A program made the position numbers and the translations under genes. Source: a virus. Taken from it: a stretch of DNA of 20,682 nucleotides. Where the stretch lies: the IMG/VR virus record IMGVR_UViG_3300042565_001887, positions 1 through 20,682 of that record; one strand, given 5' to 3'. This document shows, one piece after another, positions 1 through 16,502 of this stretch. Each line of letters opens with the position of its first letter. Position 1 is the stretch's first letter. The notes beneath the pieces were generated by a model. The model saw only the letters and a list, made by a program, of their open reading frames with translations. It ran no database searches and had not been told where the DNA came from.

Positions 1-429
1 AGAACTTGCTACCCGGTTTGTTAATTCAGCTAAATAAGCAGGGCCACCGCAACGGTATTTTAATTTTTCAGCTACGGTAATAATATCTACTACTTCAACT
101 GATTGACAAAGTTCAAAAATAAGTTTGTGATTGTCAAAATAAAAGTGTTCAGGGCTTAAAAAATTAACTTTGTCGCGGGCGTTATTATCTACTAATATAG
201 CACCTAAAATAACCTGTTCTAAGTCTTTAGAATGCGGGAACGTAATTTGTTTTTCAAAAAAACTTTGCTCTTTTTCTTCTAATGCAATAATAATATTTTG
301 CAGCGTTAAAAGTTGGCGTTCTTTAAGTTGCCTGTAATTTTGGCGCTTAGTATCGTCTTTGATGTATGCATCCATTTTTAGCGCTTCATCTTTAAGTTCA
401 GATAGTAGGTTTTCAGCTTCGTTGGTCAT
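1..429 (-). CDS. dnaB: Replicative DNA helicase, DnaB-like N-terminal part (truncated by window edge)
   Basis: The reading frame is open from ATG at 429-427 to the left edge, giving 143 codons with no stop. After a charged, probably helical N-terminal stretch of about 65 residues it reads into a DnaB N-terminal domain: PHSKDLEQVILGAILVDN, then SPEHFYFDNHKLIFEL, then DIITVAEKL and GGPAYLAELTNRVASS. These match the family pattern of an LGA(I/L)L helix, an 'FY..H..IF' helix and a 'GG..YLAEL' helix that form the hexamer collar. The ATPase core (Walker A/B) would lie beyond the edge. DnaB unwinds DNA at the phage fork and recruits primase. The start overlaps the methyltransferase stop by 4 bases (ATGA), so it is the last visible gene of the leftward operon. 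The roughly 65-residue N-terminal extension is longer than usual. Family assignment is confident; only half the protein is visible. Confidence 0.88.
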   Translation of the reverse strand, partial: MTNEAENLLSELKDEALKMDAYIKDDTKRQNYRQLKERQLLTLQNIIIALEEKEQSFFEKQITFPHSKDLEQVILGAILVDNNARDKVNFLSPEHFYFDNHKLIFELCQSVEVVDIITVAEKLKYRCGGPAYLAELTNRVASS

Positions 430-6415: not shown

Positions 6416-7108
6416 ATGAAAACAAATGTAATTATGCAATCAAAAGACCGTGAACTTTTTGGAGTTACGATTAAACAAGAAACTAAAAGTGGATTTTTAT
6501 CAGTTACGGCATTACAAAAAGCCTATGAAACCGCAAGATGGGAATTTGGATGGACTGATAGAAGAATTGAAACTATAATGCAAACACAAGATTTTAAAGA
6601 ACGTACATATTATTTATTAGAAAATCAAGGAATCATAAAAACAGGTTTTAATGCTTTTATAGAACGTATAAATGAAATGGGAATTGCAAAATTATTAAAG
6701 TCACTTAATGTATATAAAACAACAGGAGCAAGACATACAAAAGAAGTTATGTGCAATCCTTATATATGGGTTTTATTAGCAATGGAATTAAATCCAATGA
6801 TTTATGCTAAAGTTGTTATTTGGTTAACAGATAGCCTAATATTTGACCGTATTGAAGCTGGTACTGAATATAGACCAATGAATGATGCTATTAAAAAAAT
6901 TATACCTAATGCTGAATTTTATAAATATGCTATGGCTATAAATGAACGTGTTTTTGAAAAACATTTTGCAGGCATGAGAAATTTAGCATCTGCAAATGAA
7001 CTTAAAAAAATTACAAAGATTGAGCAGTTTATTACACAGGGTATTGATTTAGGAATGATTAAAAATGAAGCTCAGATTCTTTATACTATTAAAACACTTA
7101 ATTTATGA
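6416..7108 (+). CDS. KilA-N-like DNA-binding protein, possible antirepressor
   Basis: A 230-residue protein. It opens with a strand and a short 'FLSVTALQKAYE' segment like the KilA-N/BRO start ('vnatdl.k'), and a tryptophan-rich WEFGWTDRR follows. The most telling part is TGARHTKEVMCNPYIWVLLA (about 102-121), continuing MELNPMIYAKVVIWLTD. This corresponds to the KilA-N core 'GTW.hp.la..lA.wlsP.f...V..wl'. The rest is helical. KilA-N proteins in phages are DNA-binding regulators, often antirepressors. The gene has a perfect promoter of its own and is followed by two small genes, the first overlapping by 4 bases. Its codons are visibly more AT-biased, with far fewer gcg/cgc words, than the recombination and terminase genes on either side, which fits recent acquisition as a moron. 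Confidence 0.65.
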   Translation: MKTNVIMQSKDRELFGVTIKQETKSGFLSVTALQKAYETARWEFGWTDRRIETIMQTQDFKERTYYLLENQGIIKTGFNAFIERINEMGIAKLLKSLNVYKTTGARHTKEVMCNPYIWVLLAMELNPMIYAKVVIWLTDSLIFDRIEAGTEYRPMNDAIKKIIPNAEFYKYAMAINERVFEKHFAGMRNLASANELKKITKIEQFITQGIDLGMIKNEAQILYTIKTLNL

Positions 7109-7691: not shown

Positions 7692-7723
7692 AACCGCTGT
7701 TCAACAAGTGCAGCGGTTTTTTT
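7692..7723 (+). terminator. Intrinsic terminator closing the KilA-N cassette
   Basis: Perfect 8-base arms AACCGCTG (7692-7699) and CAGCGGTT (7711-7718) around an 11-base loop, followed by a run of seven T (7717-7723). A second small hairpin, GCGG (7679-7682) and CCGC (7687-7690), lies just before it. Confidence 0.88.
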
Positions 7724-7731
7724 ATTTGAAA

Positions 7732-7960
7732 TGTTAACACAGGTTACGCAGCATGTAACACATAACTGTTTGATTATTAGTTTTGTTACGCTGTTAACAC
7801 CCGTTACGGGGTTTTTCTCACATACGACGCATACATACACATGCGTATTTAAACTAAAAAATACATATGTGCGTAGAATATAGCGTAACAGGTGTAAACA
7901 CGTAACATGTACTATATATCAATTACTTATGTGTTACACTTAATGTAACAAGTGTTAACA
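7732..7960. repeat. GTTAC/GTTAAC repeat cluster (iteron- or cos/pac-like)
   Basis: Within about 230 bases there are eight copies of GTTAC or its complement GTAAC (7743, 7755, 7785, 7803, 7885, 7902, 7933, 7945) and three of GTTAAC (7733, 7793, 7954). TGTTAACAC-NN-GTTACG occurs at 7732-7748 and again at 7792-7808, exactly 60 bases apart. The block GTTACG...GTTACG at 7785-7808 recurs inverted at 7884-7906 (CGTAAC...CGTAAC with a near-identical centre). Near 7932-7960 the motif forms a palindrome-like set. Repeats on both strands, no coding capacity and the following AT-rich tract fit a replication origin. Position just before the small terminase gene equally fits a cos/pac region with terminase binding sites. 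Confidence 0.7.
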
Positions 7961-8015
7961 ATAATAATAAATAATAATAATAATATAAATAATAATACTA
8001 ATAATAATATAGATA
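7958..8015. repeat. AT-triplet tract (candidate DNA unwinding element)
   Basis: About 50 bases made almost wholly of AAT/ATA triplets with no G and a single C until base 8012. It directly follows the GTTAC repeats. Such tracts next to iterons commonly melt first at origins; here that is an inference from layout. Confidence 0.5.
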
Positions 8016-8112
8016 TAGTCTTAAAACTTATTTAAACGGTGTTTTAAGGCATTTTTATATTAAAGTAGTGTGTAGATATCAAAAGTTATTTAAAGTTGCT
8101 TAAAACGAAAAT

Positions 8113-10971: not shown

Positions 10972-11352
10972 TATAAACATAGTAGTATAAGGATGGCCGC
11001 CGCCTGTAAACATTATACCTTTATAAGGCCAATTGAAATGATTGGTAATATGCAGCTGCCAATGCTCCCACGGCGTTTTATACTTAGGTTCTTTAAAGTC
11101 TAACCAAAAATAAGCCTTATGCGTTTTAAGTTCGTTATTCAATAGTGCAACCCATGAATAATAACGTGATTCTGATTCTAAAACAGAATAGTGCCGCGGT
11201 GGATGCCAGAATTTAAAGCGTTTATGTTTTCTGTAAAACTTACGGGTTAACGGAAAACATTTGAACGAATCATTCAGGATTAAACCAAGTTCAATATTAT
11301 CACTATGACCGCTTAATATTAGTTCGCGTATCCATTTAGATTCCGTTTGCAT
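10954..11352 (-). CDS. Hypothetical protein, aromatic- and histidine-rich
   Basis: A 132-residue protein that I do not recognise. It is unusually rich in Trp, Tyr, Phe and His (for example KFWHPPRHYS, YYSWVALL, PWEHWQLHITNHFNWPYK) and is basic. It ends with GGGHPYTTMFIRGHNL. There is no signal peptide or membrane segment. Its start overlaps the end of the sigma factor gene by 17 bases, so it is translated from the same leftward message and is the last gene of that operon. Co-expression suggests a part in phage transcription control or takeover, but there is no motif to support this. The last codons lie in a palindrome (10954-10966). Confidence 0.75.
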   Translation of the reverse strand: MQTESKWIRELILSGHSDNIELGLILNDSFKCFPLTRKFYRKHKRFKFWHPPRHYSVLESESRYYSWVALLNNELKTHKAYFWLDFKEPKYKTPWEHWQLHITNHFNWPYKGIMFTGGGHPYTTMFIRGHNL

Positions 11353-12103
11353 ATTTATTTCTTATTTTTTTATACGCTTGTTTTTCTATTTGCCTGACAC
11401 GTTCACGACAGAGTTTTAGTTTTTCAGCTACTTGGCTTAAATCTTGCGGGAAGTTATCAAAGTATCTATACCTTAAAACTTCTAATTCACGGCATGTTAA
11501 ACATTCGGTAACTTCGTTGTAAAGTTCTTTTAGTTCTAACTGCAAAACGTGTTTATCTGTTTGATCATCTGATGCAACCTGATAAATAATATCGCCATCA
11601 AAATTAGTATCGTCTAAGCTAACGAAGCCTGTAATACTTTGCGCTGATTTTATAATGTTTTCAGGTATGTTTAGTTTTTCCGATAACAGGTAACTATCTG
11701 TTTCTTCATACTTACCGATTTGGTATCTAACCTGAGATATTCGATGTGGCAGCCTTACGCAGTTTTTCTTAGTATCAATGAAGTCTTTGATATAGCGCTG
11801 AATCTGAAATAATGCGTAACTAATAAATTTATTTTCAAACGTTGGGTTAAATGTATCGGCAGCTTTGATTAGGCCAAACATAGCCTCACTTATTAAATCC
11901 ATTATATCTACTTGTGCAGTATCGTAACGGAACGCAACTGATGCGGCAAATAACATATTGTGATTGATCAGTTGTTCGCGTGTTGCTGTTCGTTCCTGTT
12001 CGAATGTTAGCGGCTTATATTTTTGCGCTTCTGTTAAGAACTGCTGTAGTATACCTTTTTTATTTCGGTGGTTATTGCCTTTAATATCTATATGCTTAAT
12101 CAT
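11336..12103 (-). CDS. Phage-encoded sigma-70 family RNA polymerase sigma factor
   Basis: A 255-residue sigma factor. Residues about 20-40 resemble the end of region 1.2. Region 2 (45-115) includes VDIMDLISEAMFGLIKAADT (core binding) and NKFISYALFQIQRYIKDFID (-7/-10 recognition and melting). Region 3 starts at CVRLPHR (115-121). Region 4 (about 195-250) has CRELEVLRYRYFDNFPQ and the helix-turn-helix SQVAEKLKLCRERVRQIEKQ (223-242), which reads the upstream element. Being larger than ECF factors and having region 3, it belongs near the group 2/3 sigmas. It would bind host core polymerase and redirect it to phage promoters. The operon is read from a host-type promoter at 12942-12972. The gene overlaps both neighbours. 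Family call is firm; the regulon is inferred. Confidence 0.92.
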   Translation of the reverse strand: MIKHIDIKGNNHRNKKGILQQFLTEAQKYKPLTFEQERTATREQLINHNMLFAASVAFRYDTAQVDIMDLISEAMFGLIKAADTFNPTFENKFISYALFQIQRYIKDFIDTKKNCVRLPHRISQVRYQIGKYEETDSYLLSEKLNIPENIIKSAQSITGFVSLDDTNFDGDIIYQVASDDQTDKHVLQLELKELYNEVTECLTCRELEVLRYRYFDNFPQDLSQVAEKLKLCRERVRQIEKQAYKKIRNKYANGI

Positions 12104-13042: not shown

Positions 13043-13603
13043 ATGATTTTTAGAAAACGAAACAGGGCAGAACAAAACGAAAGTAATTACCAGAAGTGGC
13101 TTAAAACCTACATTCCCGAAACTACAAAGCAGCGCATAGAATTGACAAGAGTATTTACAGACCGCGCTGGTAATAACTTTTACATTTTAAAGAATCCTGC
13201 AAACCTAACGCGTGAACGTGCGCAAAGGATCGAAGAAGCTATGACCGCAATTGATTTTGGTATTCACAAAACAGAAGTAGTTGAAAAGCTAAACGGCATT
13301 TTAGAAACTGTTGAAGAAATGCCATGGCAAAACATGACACGCGATAAGCTAAAAGAATTTCATACTAAGTCTAAGGACCAATTAAACGACATTCTTTACA
13401 GGCTTAAAAGCGTTAAGTTAGATGATTTATTATTAGAAGCTGGTTTGTATTTTTTTTATATTGATGGTGAAAACCCATACATTATAAATTCAGAAACACA
13501 GCAGCGCAAAATGGAAGCGATTAAAAAAGACGATGAACTGCGCGCTTTTTTTTTGAACAGTATAGAACAAATATTGAAAGGTTCGAGCGCTTTAAAAAAT
13601 TAA
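13043..13603 (+). CDS. Tail assembly chaperone, gpG-like
   Basis: A 186-residue, mostly helical soluble protein with no recognised domain (MIFRKRNRAEQNESNYQKWL start, C-terminus FFLNSIEQILKGSSALKN). Identification rests on context. It lies directly before the tape measure gene, is followed by an overlapping open frame without its own good start, and has nine consecutive T (13546-13554) near its 3' end. This is the arrangement of lambda gpG/gpGT and equivalents, which coat the tape measure protein during tail assembly. Most ribosomes would stop at 13603. A minority would slip -1 and make a 269-residue fusion. It begins the rightward tail module, downstream of a weak promoter-like element. Confidence 0.72.
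   Translation: MIFRKRNRAEQNESNYQKWLKTYIPETTKQRIELTRVFTDRAGNNFYILKNPANLTRERAQRIEEAMTAIDFGIHKTEVVEKLNGILETVEEMPWQNMTRDKLKEFHTKSKDQLNDILYRLKSVKLDDLLLEAGLYFFYIDGENPYIINSETQQRKMEAIKKDDELRAFFLNSIEQILKGSSALKN
13546..13554 (+). promoter_or_regulatory. Slippery T9 site for -1 ribosomal frameshifting
   Basis: In the zero frame the codons are GCT TTT TTT TTG, giving the slippery heptamer T TTT TTT at 13546-13552. A -1 slip keeps TTT pairing in both sites and continues TTT GAA CAG. The -1 frame has a stop at 13534-13536 and the zero frame stops at 13601-13603, so any shift must fall between them, exactly where the run lies. Confidence 0.72.
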
Positions 13604-13851
13604 ACTTTCCAAGGCTAAACAAAATTGAACCAAACGCAAAACCAAAAAAGAAACCTGCAACATATCAACACGCACTACAAAAACTGAAAGAACAAAACCG
13701 CGAAAACGATTATATTATAACAAAGGGTGACCCGGTACAGATGGCAAATGTTAGATTCTGGGTTATACGTGATTATTACGCGGCATTAGAACAGATATTA
13801 AAAGACAACGATAGGGCCGAACAGGCTAACAAAAAAATAAATAAAAAGTAA
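13552..13851 (+). CDS. gpT-like extension of the tail chaperone (read by -1 frameshift)
   Basis: After the T9 run the -1 frame stays open for 99 codons to TAA at 13849-13851, which overlaps the tape measure ATG by one base (TAATG). It reads FEQYRTNIERFERFKKLNFP, then a Lys/Pro-rich linker (NAKPKKKPATYQHAL), then ending with VRFWVIRDYYAALEQILK and a basic tail. There is no start codon near its beginning; the first ATG is at 13741 and would give only 36 residues. Joined to residues 1-170 of the gpG-like protein it makes a 269-residue product. In lambda the T part contacts the tape measure protein. The codon usage and the exact abutment to the next gene argue that it is translated. The alternative is a homopolymer sequencing error fusing both frames. 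Confidence 0.7.
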   Translation, partial: FEQYRTNIERFERFKKLNFPRLNKIEPNAKPKKKPATYQHALQKLKEQNRENDYIITKGDPVQMANVRFWVIRDYYAALEQILKDNDRAEQANKKINKK

Positions 13852-16502
13852 TGGCAGAAATTAAAGACGTTTATAGTTTAGAATTTAACGGTTCGCAATT
13901 TCAAAGCGAAATTAACTCGGCAATTGCAAGCATTGAAGAACTAAACAGCGCAATGGCTGAAGGCGCTGACGTTGCTGATGAATTAGAATCTGCGCAGCAA
14001 AGTTTTATATCTATTTTAGGAACTGAAGCGAAAGGATTAGACCAATTAAATCAAAAACGCGATGCTCTTTTAAAATTACAAAAGTCTGTAAATGCAGAAT
14101 CAAAATTAGGCGTAGCTGTTGGAAATCAATTAGCAAATGTTAACAAACAGATAGCTACAGAAACTGCAAATGCAACAAAACAGCAAAAAGGATTTGGTCA
14201 AACGTTGATACAAGGCACACGCCAAATAGGTCAAATGCGCCGAGTTGCTTCTACATTGGGTTTTGCATTTCGCGCCATTGGTGCTGTATTGCCATTTGGT
14301 TTAATACTTAGTTTTGCAGGTCCTATATTAAGTTTTTTTAGCAGTTTAGTACAAGGTACTGATGATACTGCTGAAAACATGGAGAAAATAAATGATAAAA
14401 CGCTATCTTATCAAGAACGTTTAGATATTGCAGCTGTTGAACTTCAAAAGCTAAATAATATTGAAACACAGCGCGGAAAACTTACAGATGAAGAGGAAAA
14501 ACGCCGCCGTGAATTAGTACAGGTGTATAAAGATACATCTAAAGAAATGATTAAAGAAGAACAAGACCGTTTAGATGCTATTGCAGATTATCAGTATAGA
14601 ACCCAAAGAATAAGAATTAAACTTGAAGGTGAAACAGTTGAAGCTGTTATTAAAAGCCGTGAACTTGAGCGTAAAGAAATAATGCGCCAAAATCAAAAAC
14701 GTGAAGATGAGTTAAAACTACAAGAAGAAGAAGCACTAAGACAAGCATTAGACGCTGAATTAAAAGGCGAAACACAAAGAGCATATTTATTAAGAAAAAA
14801 ATGGGAATCATTATTAGAAGAACGTACAACTATTTGGACATATCAAACAGCACAGATAGAAGAACTTGAAGCCGATGCGCAAAAAAGAATAAATGATATT
14901 ATACAAAAAGGTGCTGATAAACAAAAGGCTGACCGTTTAAAAGCGATTCAGGATGAAATGAAAAATGTCGAAAATGCTTTACAGATTGAGGTATTAAAAA
15001 CAGAAGAAAATACCGAAGCAAGATTGAAAGCTGAACTTCAACTAATTGATGTTTTAGAATCCTTAAAAATTGAATATCAAAAAGAACTTGGTTTGTCTGA
15101 ATCTGAAATTACTCTGATGCAACAGGAAAATGTAAATAAGCGTAAAGAATTATATGAAACGTATTATAAGTTTATAGCTGACAAAGAAGAAAAAAACGAA
15201 AAAACTATAAAGAAATTTGCTAAAAAATTACAAGACGAATCAAAGAAATTAGTTAAAGCTGTAATGTCTGACAATGAAAAAATATACAAAGACCGCAATT
15301 CAATATTAGAAAACCAGTTAGAAACACAACTGAATTATCAGTTAATTGCATTAGAAGAGGAACGCCAATTGCTATTAAAAGCATCAATAGGTAATAAAGT
15401 TGAAGAGGAAAAAATAAATAAAGATTTTGATAAGCGCCGTTTAGAACTTGAAAAAGATACTAATAAAAAAGTACTTGAAGGTCGTTTAGTTTTGTTTGCT
15501 CAATTAAGAACTTTAGCAGTTGCAAGTGGTGATACTAAGTTAGTATCTGATATTGATAAACAAGTATCTGAAGTTAAATTAAAAATTACTGAACTAAATG
15601 AAAGTGCAACAGATACTACTGAAAACCTTAAAGGTTTAACCGATAAGCAAAAAGAACTAATAGAACAAACCGCTTCGTTAATTACAGGTGTTTCCGATTC
15701 TGTTTTTTCAGTTCTTAACGCACAGGTTCAAGCCTACATTTCTGGACTTGATAAAGCAATAGATAAAAGCAAATCGGCATTAGATGAAATACGTTCTAAT
15801 AGTGAAGATTTTAACGCGCGTCAATTAGAAATAGAAAAGGAACGTTTAGAAAAGTTGGAAGCTGAACGGGCCCGTGCTGTTGAACGTGAAAAAACATTAG
15901 CACAGGTACAGATAGCTATTAACGCATCAATTGCAATATCAAAAGCATTGATTGAAGGCGGTGGTTTTGCATCAGCTATAACAGTTGGTTTAACTATTGC
16001 GTCACTTATTGCAGGTTTAGCACAAGCACGTGCAGCCGCTGGTAACGCGTTTTATAAGGGTGTTGAATACTTAGAACGCGGCAACAATAAAGCAGGCCGC
16101 GACACAATACCAGCAATGCTTAATGAAGGTGAACGCGTAATAACAACCGATACAAATAATAAGTATTGGGATGTTTTAAGCGCCGTACACAATAACAGAA
16201 TCCCTGCGGATGTTCTGAATACATTTTCTAAAGCATATCAGCAAGGCGGCATTAAAAGCGCGCTCGGTGCATTTGGGGATAACGTTTCACTTAGTTCTGA
16301 ATTAGGGCAAAAGTCTATATTTGTAAACGTGGCGCAAACATACGGCGGATTAGAAAACAGATTGGAACGTATCGAAAATGTTTTAACTGAACTGCCAAAG
16401 TACATGCCGCGTACAACAGTTAGCGCGAATGCCAACGGTATATTTAAAATTGTAGAACAAAGACAAGCGCGTAAAAACTTCTCGCGTAATTGGTCAAAAT
16501 GA
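13851..16502 (+). CDS. Tail tape measure protein
   Basis: An 883-residue protein, by far the longest complete gene in the window. A hydrophobic segment near 131-168 (RVASTLGFAFRAIGAVLPFG, then LILSFAGPILSFFSSLV) is followed by several hundred residues of Lys/Glu/Gln/Leu-rich coiled coil. A second hydrophobic stretch is at about 707-731 (ASAITVGLTIASLIAGLAQA). The C-terminal GRDTIPAMLNEGERVIT (about 749-765) is the 'DT.PA.L..GE.V' motif seen in many tape measure proteins. It sets tail length and is thought to help DNA cross the cell envelope. Its ATG overlaps the stop of the gpT-like frame. Length suggests a moderately long tail, so a sipho- or myovirus-like virion; no sheath gene is visible. 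No peptidase domain seen. Confidence 0.93.
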   Translation: MAEIKDVYSLEFNGSQFQSEINSAIASIEELNSAMAEGADVADELESAQQSFISILGTEAKGLDQLNQKRDALLKLQKSVNAESKLGVAVGNQLANVNKQIATETANATKQQKGFGQTLIQGTRQIGQMRRVASTLGFAFRAIGAVLPFGLILSFAGPILSFFSSLVQGTDDTAENMEKINDKTLSYQERLDIAAVELQKLNNIETQRGKLTDEEEKRRRELVQVYKDTSKEMIKEEQDRLDAIADYQYRTQRIRIKLEGETVEAVIKSRELERKEIMRQNQKREDELKLQEEEALRQALDAELKGETQRAYLLRKKWESLLEERTTIWTYQTAQIEELEADAQKRINDIIQKGADKQKADRLKAIQDEMKNVENALQIEVLKTEENTEARLKAELQLIDVLESLKIEYQKELGLSESEITLMQQENVNKRKELYETYYKFIADKEEKNEKTIKKFAKKLQDESKKLVKAVMSDNEKIYKDRNSILENQLETQLNYQLIALEEERQLLLKASIGNKVEEEKINKDFDKRRLELEKDTNKKVLEGRLVLFAQLRTLAVASGDTKLVSDIDKQVSEVKLKITELNESATDTTENLKGLTDKQKELIEQTASLITGVSDSVFSVLNAQVQAYISGLDKAIDKSKSALDEIRSNSEDFNARQLEIEKERLEKLEAERARAVEREKTLAQVQIAINASIAISKALIEGGGFASAITVGLTIASLIAGLAQARAAAGNAFYKGVEYLERGNNKAGRDTIPAMLNEGERVITTDTNNKYWDVLSAVHNNRIPADVLNTFSKAYQQGGIKSALGAFGDNVSLSSELGQKSIFVNVAQTYGGLENRLERIENVLTELPKYMPRTTVSANANGIFKIVEQRQARKNFSRNWSK

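Follow-up and report, generated by a model that had tools for sequence, protein, structure and literature searches.

A mirror-symmetric array of short DNA words upstream of the terminase genes of a lytic phage, probably the replication origin of a self-loading helicase

Organization of the array and its flanks

The DNA analyzed here (the window) is the 20,682-nt stretch of IMG/VR virus record IMGVR_UViG_3300042565_001887. It was assigned to a roughly 42-kb lytic Bacteroidota phage, the host group being taken from one metagenome-assembled contig and general gene content. The region under study, 7732-8015, lies upstream of the small terminase gene (TerS). The features considered, in window coordinates, were:

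1-429, minus strand: DnaB N-terminal-domain (DnaB-N) protein, cut by the window edge; neighbours the SF3-like helicase in relatives
7692-7723, plus strand: terminator-like hairpin AACCGCTG/CAGCGGTT with a T run; closes the upstream operon and marks the left boundary of the element
7732-7760, no strand: left outer word cluster (GTTAAC 7733, GTTAC 7743, GTAAC 7755)
7763-7775, minus strand: IHF-consensus site of the left arm, WATCAANNNNTTR; mirrors 7917-7929
7785-7807, no strand: left inner word cluster (GTTAC 7785, GTTAAC 7793, GTTAC 7803)
7808-7884, no strand: core between the inner clusters, with a small hairpin, alternating Y-R tracts and the dyad centre at 7846
7827-7846: core hairpin ACGCAT-N8-ATGCGT
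7885-7906, no strand: right inner word cluster (GTAAC 7885, imperfect GTAAAC 7894, GTAAC 7902)
7917-7929, plus strand: IHF-consensus site of the right arm, TATCAATTACTTA
7933-7959, no strand: right outer word cluster (GTTAC 7933, GTAAC 7945, GTTAAC 7954)
7956-8015, no strand: AAT/ATA tract at the right edge of the array, candidate duplex-unwinding element
8042-8112, plus strand: conserved block TTTTAAGGCATTTTTATATTAAAG...TTGCTTAAAACGAAAAT, which remains beside the array despite gene insertions before TerS

The sequence-only reading had counted eight GTTAC/GTAAC words and three GTTAAC words in this region, and all of them were recovered in place (7743+, 7755-, 7785+, 7803+, 7885-, 7902-, 7933+ and 7945-; 7733, 7793 and 7954). 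A twelfth, imperfect word, GTAAAC at 7894-7899, completes the pattern, so that four clusters of three GTWAC-type words make up a 229-bp mirror-symmetric array (7732-7960) with its dyad centre at about 7846, the word pairs mirroring about 7845.5. The 60-base direct-repeat spacing noted before was exact and was found twice, once per arm, from 7732 to 7792 and, inverted, from 7884 to 7944. The 17-mer TGTTWACACNNGTTACR occurs four times in this register (+7732, +7792, -7884 and -7944); at up to 3 mismatches, 5 matches were found in the window against 1.0 expected. The reported 24-base inverted block held up as a pairing of 7785-7808 with 7884-7906, but with one indel. What had been overlooked is the single dyad, in which the direct and the inverted repeats are one object.

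The array holds 11 exact words per 240 bp, while the maximum in 300 dinucleotide-preserving shuffles of the window was 6, and five mirrored word pairs were present against at most four in 5000 random placements. GTTAC was not enriched across the whole window (34 found, 42 expected), indicating that the clustering is the signal. Both the dyad and the word clustering are thus far beyond chance. Between the outer and inner clusters of each arm lie IHF-consensus sites that are exact mirror images about 7846. The A+T content of the core is 65%, equal to that of the window. Single-strand folding of the core was just weakly better than that of shuffles (z -1.5), and the core hairpin was set aside as a fold; an Rfam search for an RNA element gave no match above threshold.

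No other 60-bp stretch of the window is as unstable as 7956-8015, in the AAT/ATA tract that had been noticed after the repeats, and 7961-8020 is 93% A+T. Among 17 records tested, 13 had their least stable 60 bp within the array or next to it; four of these are complete phage genomes of 41-45 kb (PBb002, MQ-4, phi1422 and Acjo_20). This weak DNA is the core between the word sets in most lineages, and the AAT tract to the right in the lineage of the window.

The hairpin at 7692-7723 was read directly. It was absent from the pattern scan, whose loop limit of 8 nt its 11-nt loop exceeds, and a scan for sigma-70-type promoters and terminators gave nothing above shuffles. The conserved block at 8042-8112 is probably the promoter or leader of the late operon. 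A phage-encoded sigma-70-like factor with regions 2 and 4 is found at 11336-12103 (minus strand), and is a candidate reader of this block. Upstream of the array, the gene at 6416-7108 (plus strand) showed weak PHROG matches, to an amidase family in its N-terminal part and to a transcriptional-regulator family in its C-terminal part.

Conservation of the array and its independence from TerS

The layout was kept upstream of TerS in about 60 distinct regions from viral contigs, with typical positions of -381/-321/-229/-169 relative to TerS. These arrays fall into at least four sequence subtypes, which have the words and the layout in common and differ in cluster details and core; the core varies even between close relatives, and recombinants occur whose left and right halves come from different subtypes (L114). 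The strict IHF consensus was present in the right arm of 58 of 59 related arrays and in the left arm of 24 (0.6% per arm in shuffles); as the 59 arrays share ancestry, these counts show conservation and not independent events. Another 47 viral-contig loci with a single 17-mer had at most 6 words per 260 bp and were discarded as looking like chance matches.

Array subtype does not track TerS identity. The array of L093, whose TerS is 51% identical, is nearly identical to that of the window, and L014, with a 98.6% identical TerS, carries an array of another subtype. Four loci (L064, L065, L067 and L068; G002) have an intact array and a TerL of about 97% identity, but in place of TerS they carry an unrelated 121-aa protein, and a ParB-methylase gene has been inserted as well. 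The final TerS residues, DDKNININIQYPPEAK, are retained there, indicating that the swap ends inside the TerS gene. Extra genes, coding for a 101-aa protein or the ParB-methylase protein, stand right after the promoter-like block in L040, L109 and G002; the 101-aa protein has a phosphatase-like start, judged by eye.

A second lineage (L234-L240 and L263-L266) differs in both terminase genes, in the neighbouring late genes and in its structural genes, and the mirrored GTWAC array persists between a Rad52-like gene and TerS. What the two lineages have in common is mainly a replication/recombination module: an SSB, an SF3-like helicase (55%), the DnaB-N protein, a VRR-NUC nuclease, a DEAD-type helicase, a small HTH protein, an exonuclease and the Rad52-like annealing protein. 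Weaker matches between them include a sigma factor (35% identity to that of the window). Moreover, the array is present on a 7.9-kb plasmid without an annotated large terminase, and a distant TerS homolog (L056) is found without the array. The array therefore follows the replication module with its AAA+/SF3-like helicase core, not TerS.

Association of the array with the helicase gene in distant phages and plasmids

In relatives, the helicase gene lies just beyond the position of the left edge of the window (13529-15241, minus strand, in L243), and its presence in this phage was deduced from synteny with them. Where the whole array was covered, it stood 4.9-9.3 kb from the helicase gene in the window lineage and the second lineage; in the window lineage this was seen in 28 of the 40 loci with at least 5.5 kb of flank, and most of the others end too early.

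A helicase-profile scan of viral contigs recovered homologs down to about 34% identity. Homologs of about 30-35% identity, from phages and small linear plasmids of 34-67% GC, often have a mirrored array right beside the gene, usually at 0.1-0.6 kb. GTWAC arrays adjoin the helicase gene in metagenomic L338 and, in genomes of 48-67% GC, in L334, L336, L337 and L344-L347, as well as in Arsenophonus plasmid paPv15, Bdellovibrio phage phi1422 and Phaeobacter plasmid pP18_f. In Acinetobacter phage Acjo_20 the array is just upstream of the helicase gene, and in paPv15, phi1422, pP18_f, L336, L344 and L346 it is immediately 3′ of it. The array is more distant in Bordetella PBb002, at 7.8 kb, and in Serratia MQ-4, at 1.7 kb. 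Searches up to 5 kb from the helicase gene gave no array for Dolphis, PHB04 and fHe-Yen8-01, nor did the DNA examined for several metagenomic helicase homologs.

The mirrored layout also occurs with other words, namely CGTTAG in Synechococcus S-H1 and Pseudomonas ZRG1, GCTAA in Pararheinheimera KLER1-1, GTAATG in pArsFIN16, GTTGTA in paNv_CAN17 and GTAAAC in L331. When words were scanned with none preset, the best two-orientation cluster was no more than 1 kb from the helicase gene in 19 of 36 records against 6.1 expected. The P value of about 4e-7 is indicative, given the relatedness of some records, the weakness of some of the 19 clusters and one cluster (L330) that is clearly no such array. 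Comparison of word change with divergence of the helicase C-terminal domain gave no convincing tracking; the difference was small and the pairs were not independent of one another.

The array is also carried by small Arsenophonus plasmids in which no replication gene other than the helicase is evident. One of them, pArsFIN16, is an 8.3-kb linear plasmid with a protelomerase and five listed genes, among which the helicase is the only evident replication protein. Three related Arsenophonus nasoniae plasmids (L348, L361 and L363) have the same mirrored layout with three different words; a protelomerase gene is present in two, and an annotated terminase small subunit in two. A second dense word cluster, ATTGCA in eight copies, stands between the helicase gene and the GTWAC array in L334 (5429-5582) and L338 (1935-2088).

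Predicted fold of the helicase and the DnaB-N protein

The helicase is a 571-aa protein in which Walker A (GPRGNGKS) and Walker B (TIDE) motifs and an SF3-like motif C region were recognised; its Pfam matches, to DUF5906 and AAA families, are weak. A PDB sequence search with helicase profiles gave no meaningful match, and fold comparison alone worked. The AlphaFold2 model (pLDDT 82.5) matched SCCmec Cch (5dgk) best, with Z 14.8 over 358 residues; MCM proteins scored nearly as high, and Foldseek matches included SaPI5 PriRep1, NrS-1 and vaccinia D5. Modelled alone, the C-terminal domain (pLDDT 90.8) gave its best match, at a modest Z of 5.0, to SaPIbov1 Rep 452-552, and Z 3.6 to Cch. These models suggest that the helicase has the fold of the self-loading AAA+ Cch/Rep kind.

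The DnaB-N protein is 203 aa long in relative G005, without the DnaB motor, and is possibly an adaptor recruiting host primase. Many helicase relatives carry a fused CHC2 primase rather than a separate DnaB-N protein.

Alternative functions of the array

Given that the repeats stand next to a terminase gene, the sequence-only reading had also considered a cos/pac packaging site bound by TerS. In lambda cosB, R sites with the IHF site I1 between them lie next to the small terminase gene, and the repeats here, with an IHF site between them and an array that precedes TerS by about 150 bp in most relatives, do resemble it. However, a lambda-type recognition site travels with the small terminase, and this array stayed unchanged when TerS was exchanged for an unrelated protein, was kept with a different TerS and TerL, and is on a plasmid without an annotated large terminase; its subtype ignores TerS, and it forms a full dyad, unlike cosB. 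Seven contigs end inside the array, yet these ends share no base, and the near-complete genomes form circular maps whose opening points differ. The pile-up was thus dropped as a proxy for virion ends, which metagenome contigs cannot locate; mosaic strain variation explains the assembly breaks. The TerS exchange and the second lineage led us to reject the TerS-bound site, which we regard as very unlikely.

A regulatory role, in which a phage regulator common to both lineages binds the array as an enhancer or operator upstream of the late operon, would agree with the position between the terminator and the late genes, with the promoter-like block that stays adjacent despite insertions, and with the sigma factor common to both lineages. 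On the other hand, in other lineages the array goes with the helicase gene and not with a late promoter. Small plasmids carry it too, and the least stable DNA of a record usually falls within it, so that this is a very improbable primary function; regulation may be a second role here. The roughly 230-bp size, mirrored arms, bend sites and core also recall attP or a partition complex, and some array-bearing plasmids carry a protelomerase. A site of recombination, partition or resolution (attP, parS or telomere-like, with arm sites and IHF bends) is nevertheless extremely unlikely, because no integrase was recognised in the G005 gene list, the core differs between close relatives, and the gene to which the array is linked is that of the helicase, not one for an integrase or ParA/ParB.

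Proposed origin function

The origin reading that had been proposed from the words and the melting tract is strongly supported by the conserved dyad array and its association with the helicase, together with the weak duplex and the predicted helicase fold. We consider it highly probable, on computational grounds throughout, that the region 7732-8015 serves a self-loading initiator helicase as its replication origin. Cooperative protein binding at the array, also suggested earlier, is likely. The helicase, encoded 5-9 kb away, would use a winged-helix-like domain at its C terminus to recognise GTTAC/GTAAC/GTTAAC. Assembly of two helicase rings in opposite orientation would be expected, since the word clusters are arranged face to face across the dyad. 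Each arm would be bent at its mirrored consensus site by a host IHF/HU-type protein, joining the outer and inner clusters. The strands would then open at the weakest DNA, either the AAT tract or the core, and the rings would load onto single strands and start replication in both directions. The DnaB-N protein may bring in host primase, where other members have the fused CHC2 primase.

Some observations speak against an origin. The helicase gene is outside the window, 5-9 kb from the array in this lineage, and the core in the window is not A+T-rich, the weak DNA lying outside the array, unlike in most other lineages. Some helicase homologs showed no nearby array, the C-terminal match to SaPIbov1 Rep is modest, and the words do not convincingly change in step with that domain. 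The cumulative GC skew turns at a divergent promoter, which four genomes have 1.4-2.4 kb from the array and G002 farther away; this may fit gene direction as well as an origin and is uninformative.

Comparison with known origins

SaPI/PICI elements have a rep-ori layout, reported as unique to phage satellites, in which a self-loading Rep helicase acts at two iteron sets on either side of a melting region, and the ori directly follows the 3′ end of rep (PMC6092414). The phage studied here resembles them (SaPIbov1 Rep, EcCICFT073) in the predicted Cch/Rep-kind fold of its AAA+ helicase and in a short-iteron array in two sets around a central region, an arrangement seen in the window and beside many distant helicase homologs. 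In contrast to SaPI/PICI, the arrays are in lytic tailed phages and small linear plasmids rather than satellites; mirrored IHF-type sites are present in this phage; and the weakest DNA is beside the iteron sets, not between them as in most distant relatives, the core of the window being 65% A+T. Moreover, neither the window lineage, with the origin 5-9 kb from the helicase gene, nor the second lineage has it immediately 3′ of that gene. We did not file the origin of the window as PICI-type because its melting DNA lies outside the two sets and the helicase gene is kilobases away, although it would work like one.

The AAA+ core is most similar to Cch (5dgk), and in SaPI Rep and Cch2 the origin iterons are recognised by the C-terminal domain; that of Cch2 binds 5-bp AAGTG iterons at a putative origin downstream of its gene (PMC7581432). 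The Cch2 site has three direct repeats, whereas the array here has mirrored clusters, and the helicase here is often fused to a CHC2 primase or paired with a separate DnaB-N protein. Viral origin-binding helicases are also similar in part. SV40 large T antigen and papillomavirus E1 recognise their own origins and form two hexamers. Their origins, like this one, have short words in opposite orientations beside A+T-rich DNA, but these proteins bind through an N-terminal domain and use far fewer words, with no demonstrated homology of the origins. A comparison with these proteins has been made before (PMC7581432). A search of part of the literature found no described origin with the words reported here.

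To our knowledge, the origins of most sequenced phages are unknown. We tentatively propose, as a possibility short of even, a widespread and apparently undescribed family of phage and plasmid origins with one architecture (two mirrored short-word sets, bend sites in some and a weak-DNA element), whose word drifts with the initiator helicase. In the lineage of the window, the origin would have moved kilobases off the helicase gene, and the DnaB-N protein may recruit host primase. If true, this family would offer a natural series for reading how the DNA-binding domain of an initiator encodes its origin word. The origin reading itself extends the satellite-type layout (PMC6092414) to lytic phages and small linear plasmids, and gives an origin-finding rule for one large group, namely mirrored short words that surround or adjoin the least stable DNA of a genome, close to a Cch/Rep-like helicase. 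With several word variants beside related helicases, recognition of the word by the initiator is directly testable. An origin-like array often stands just upstream of the terminase genes, as in PBb002 (L351), L234-L240 and the window, and there may be a reason why origin and packaging genes stay together.
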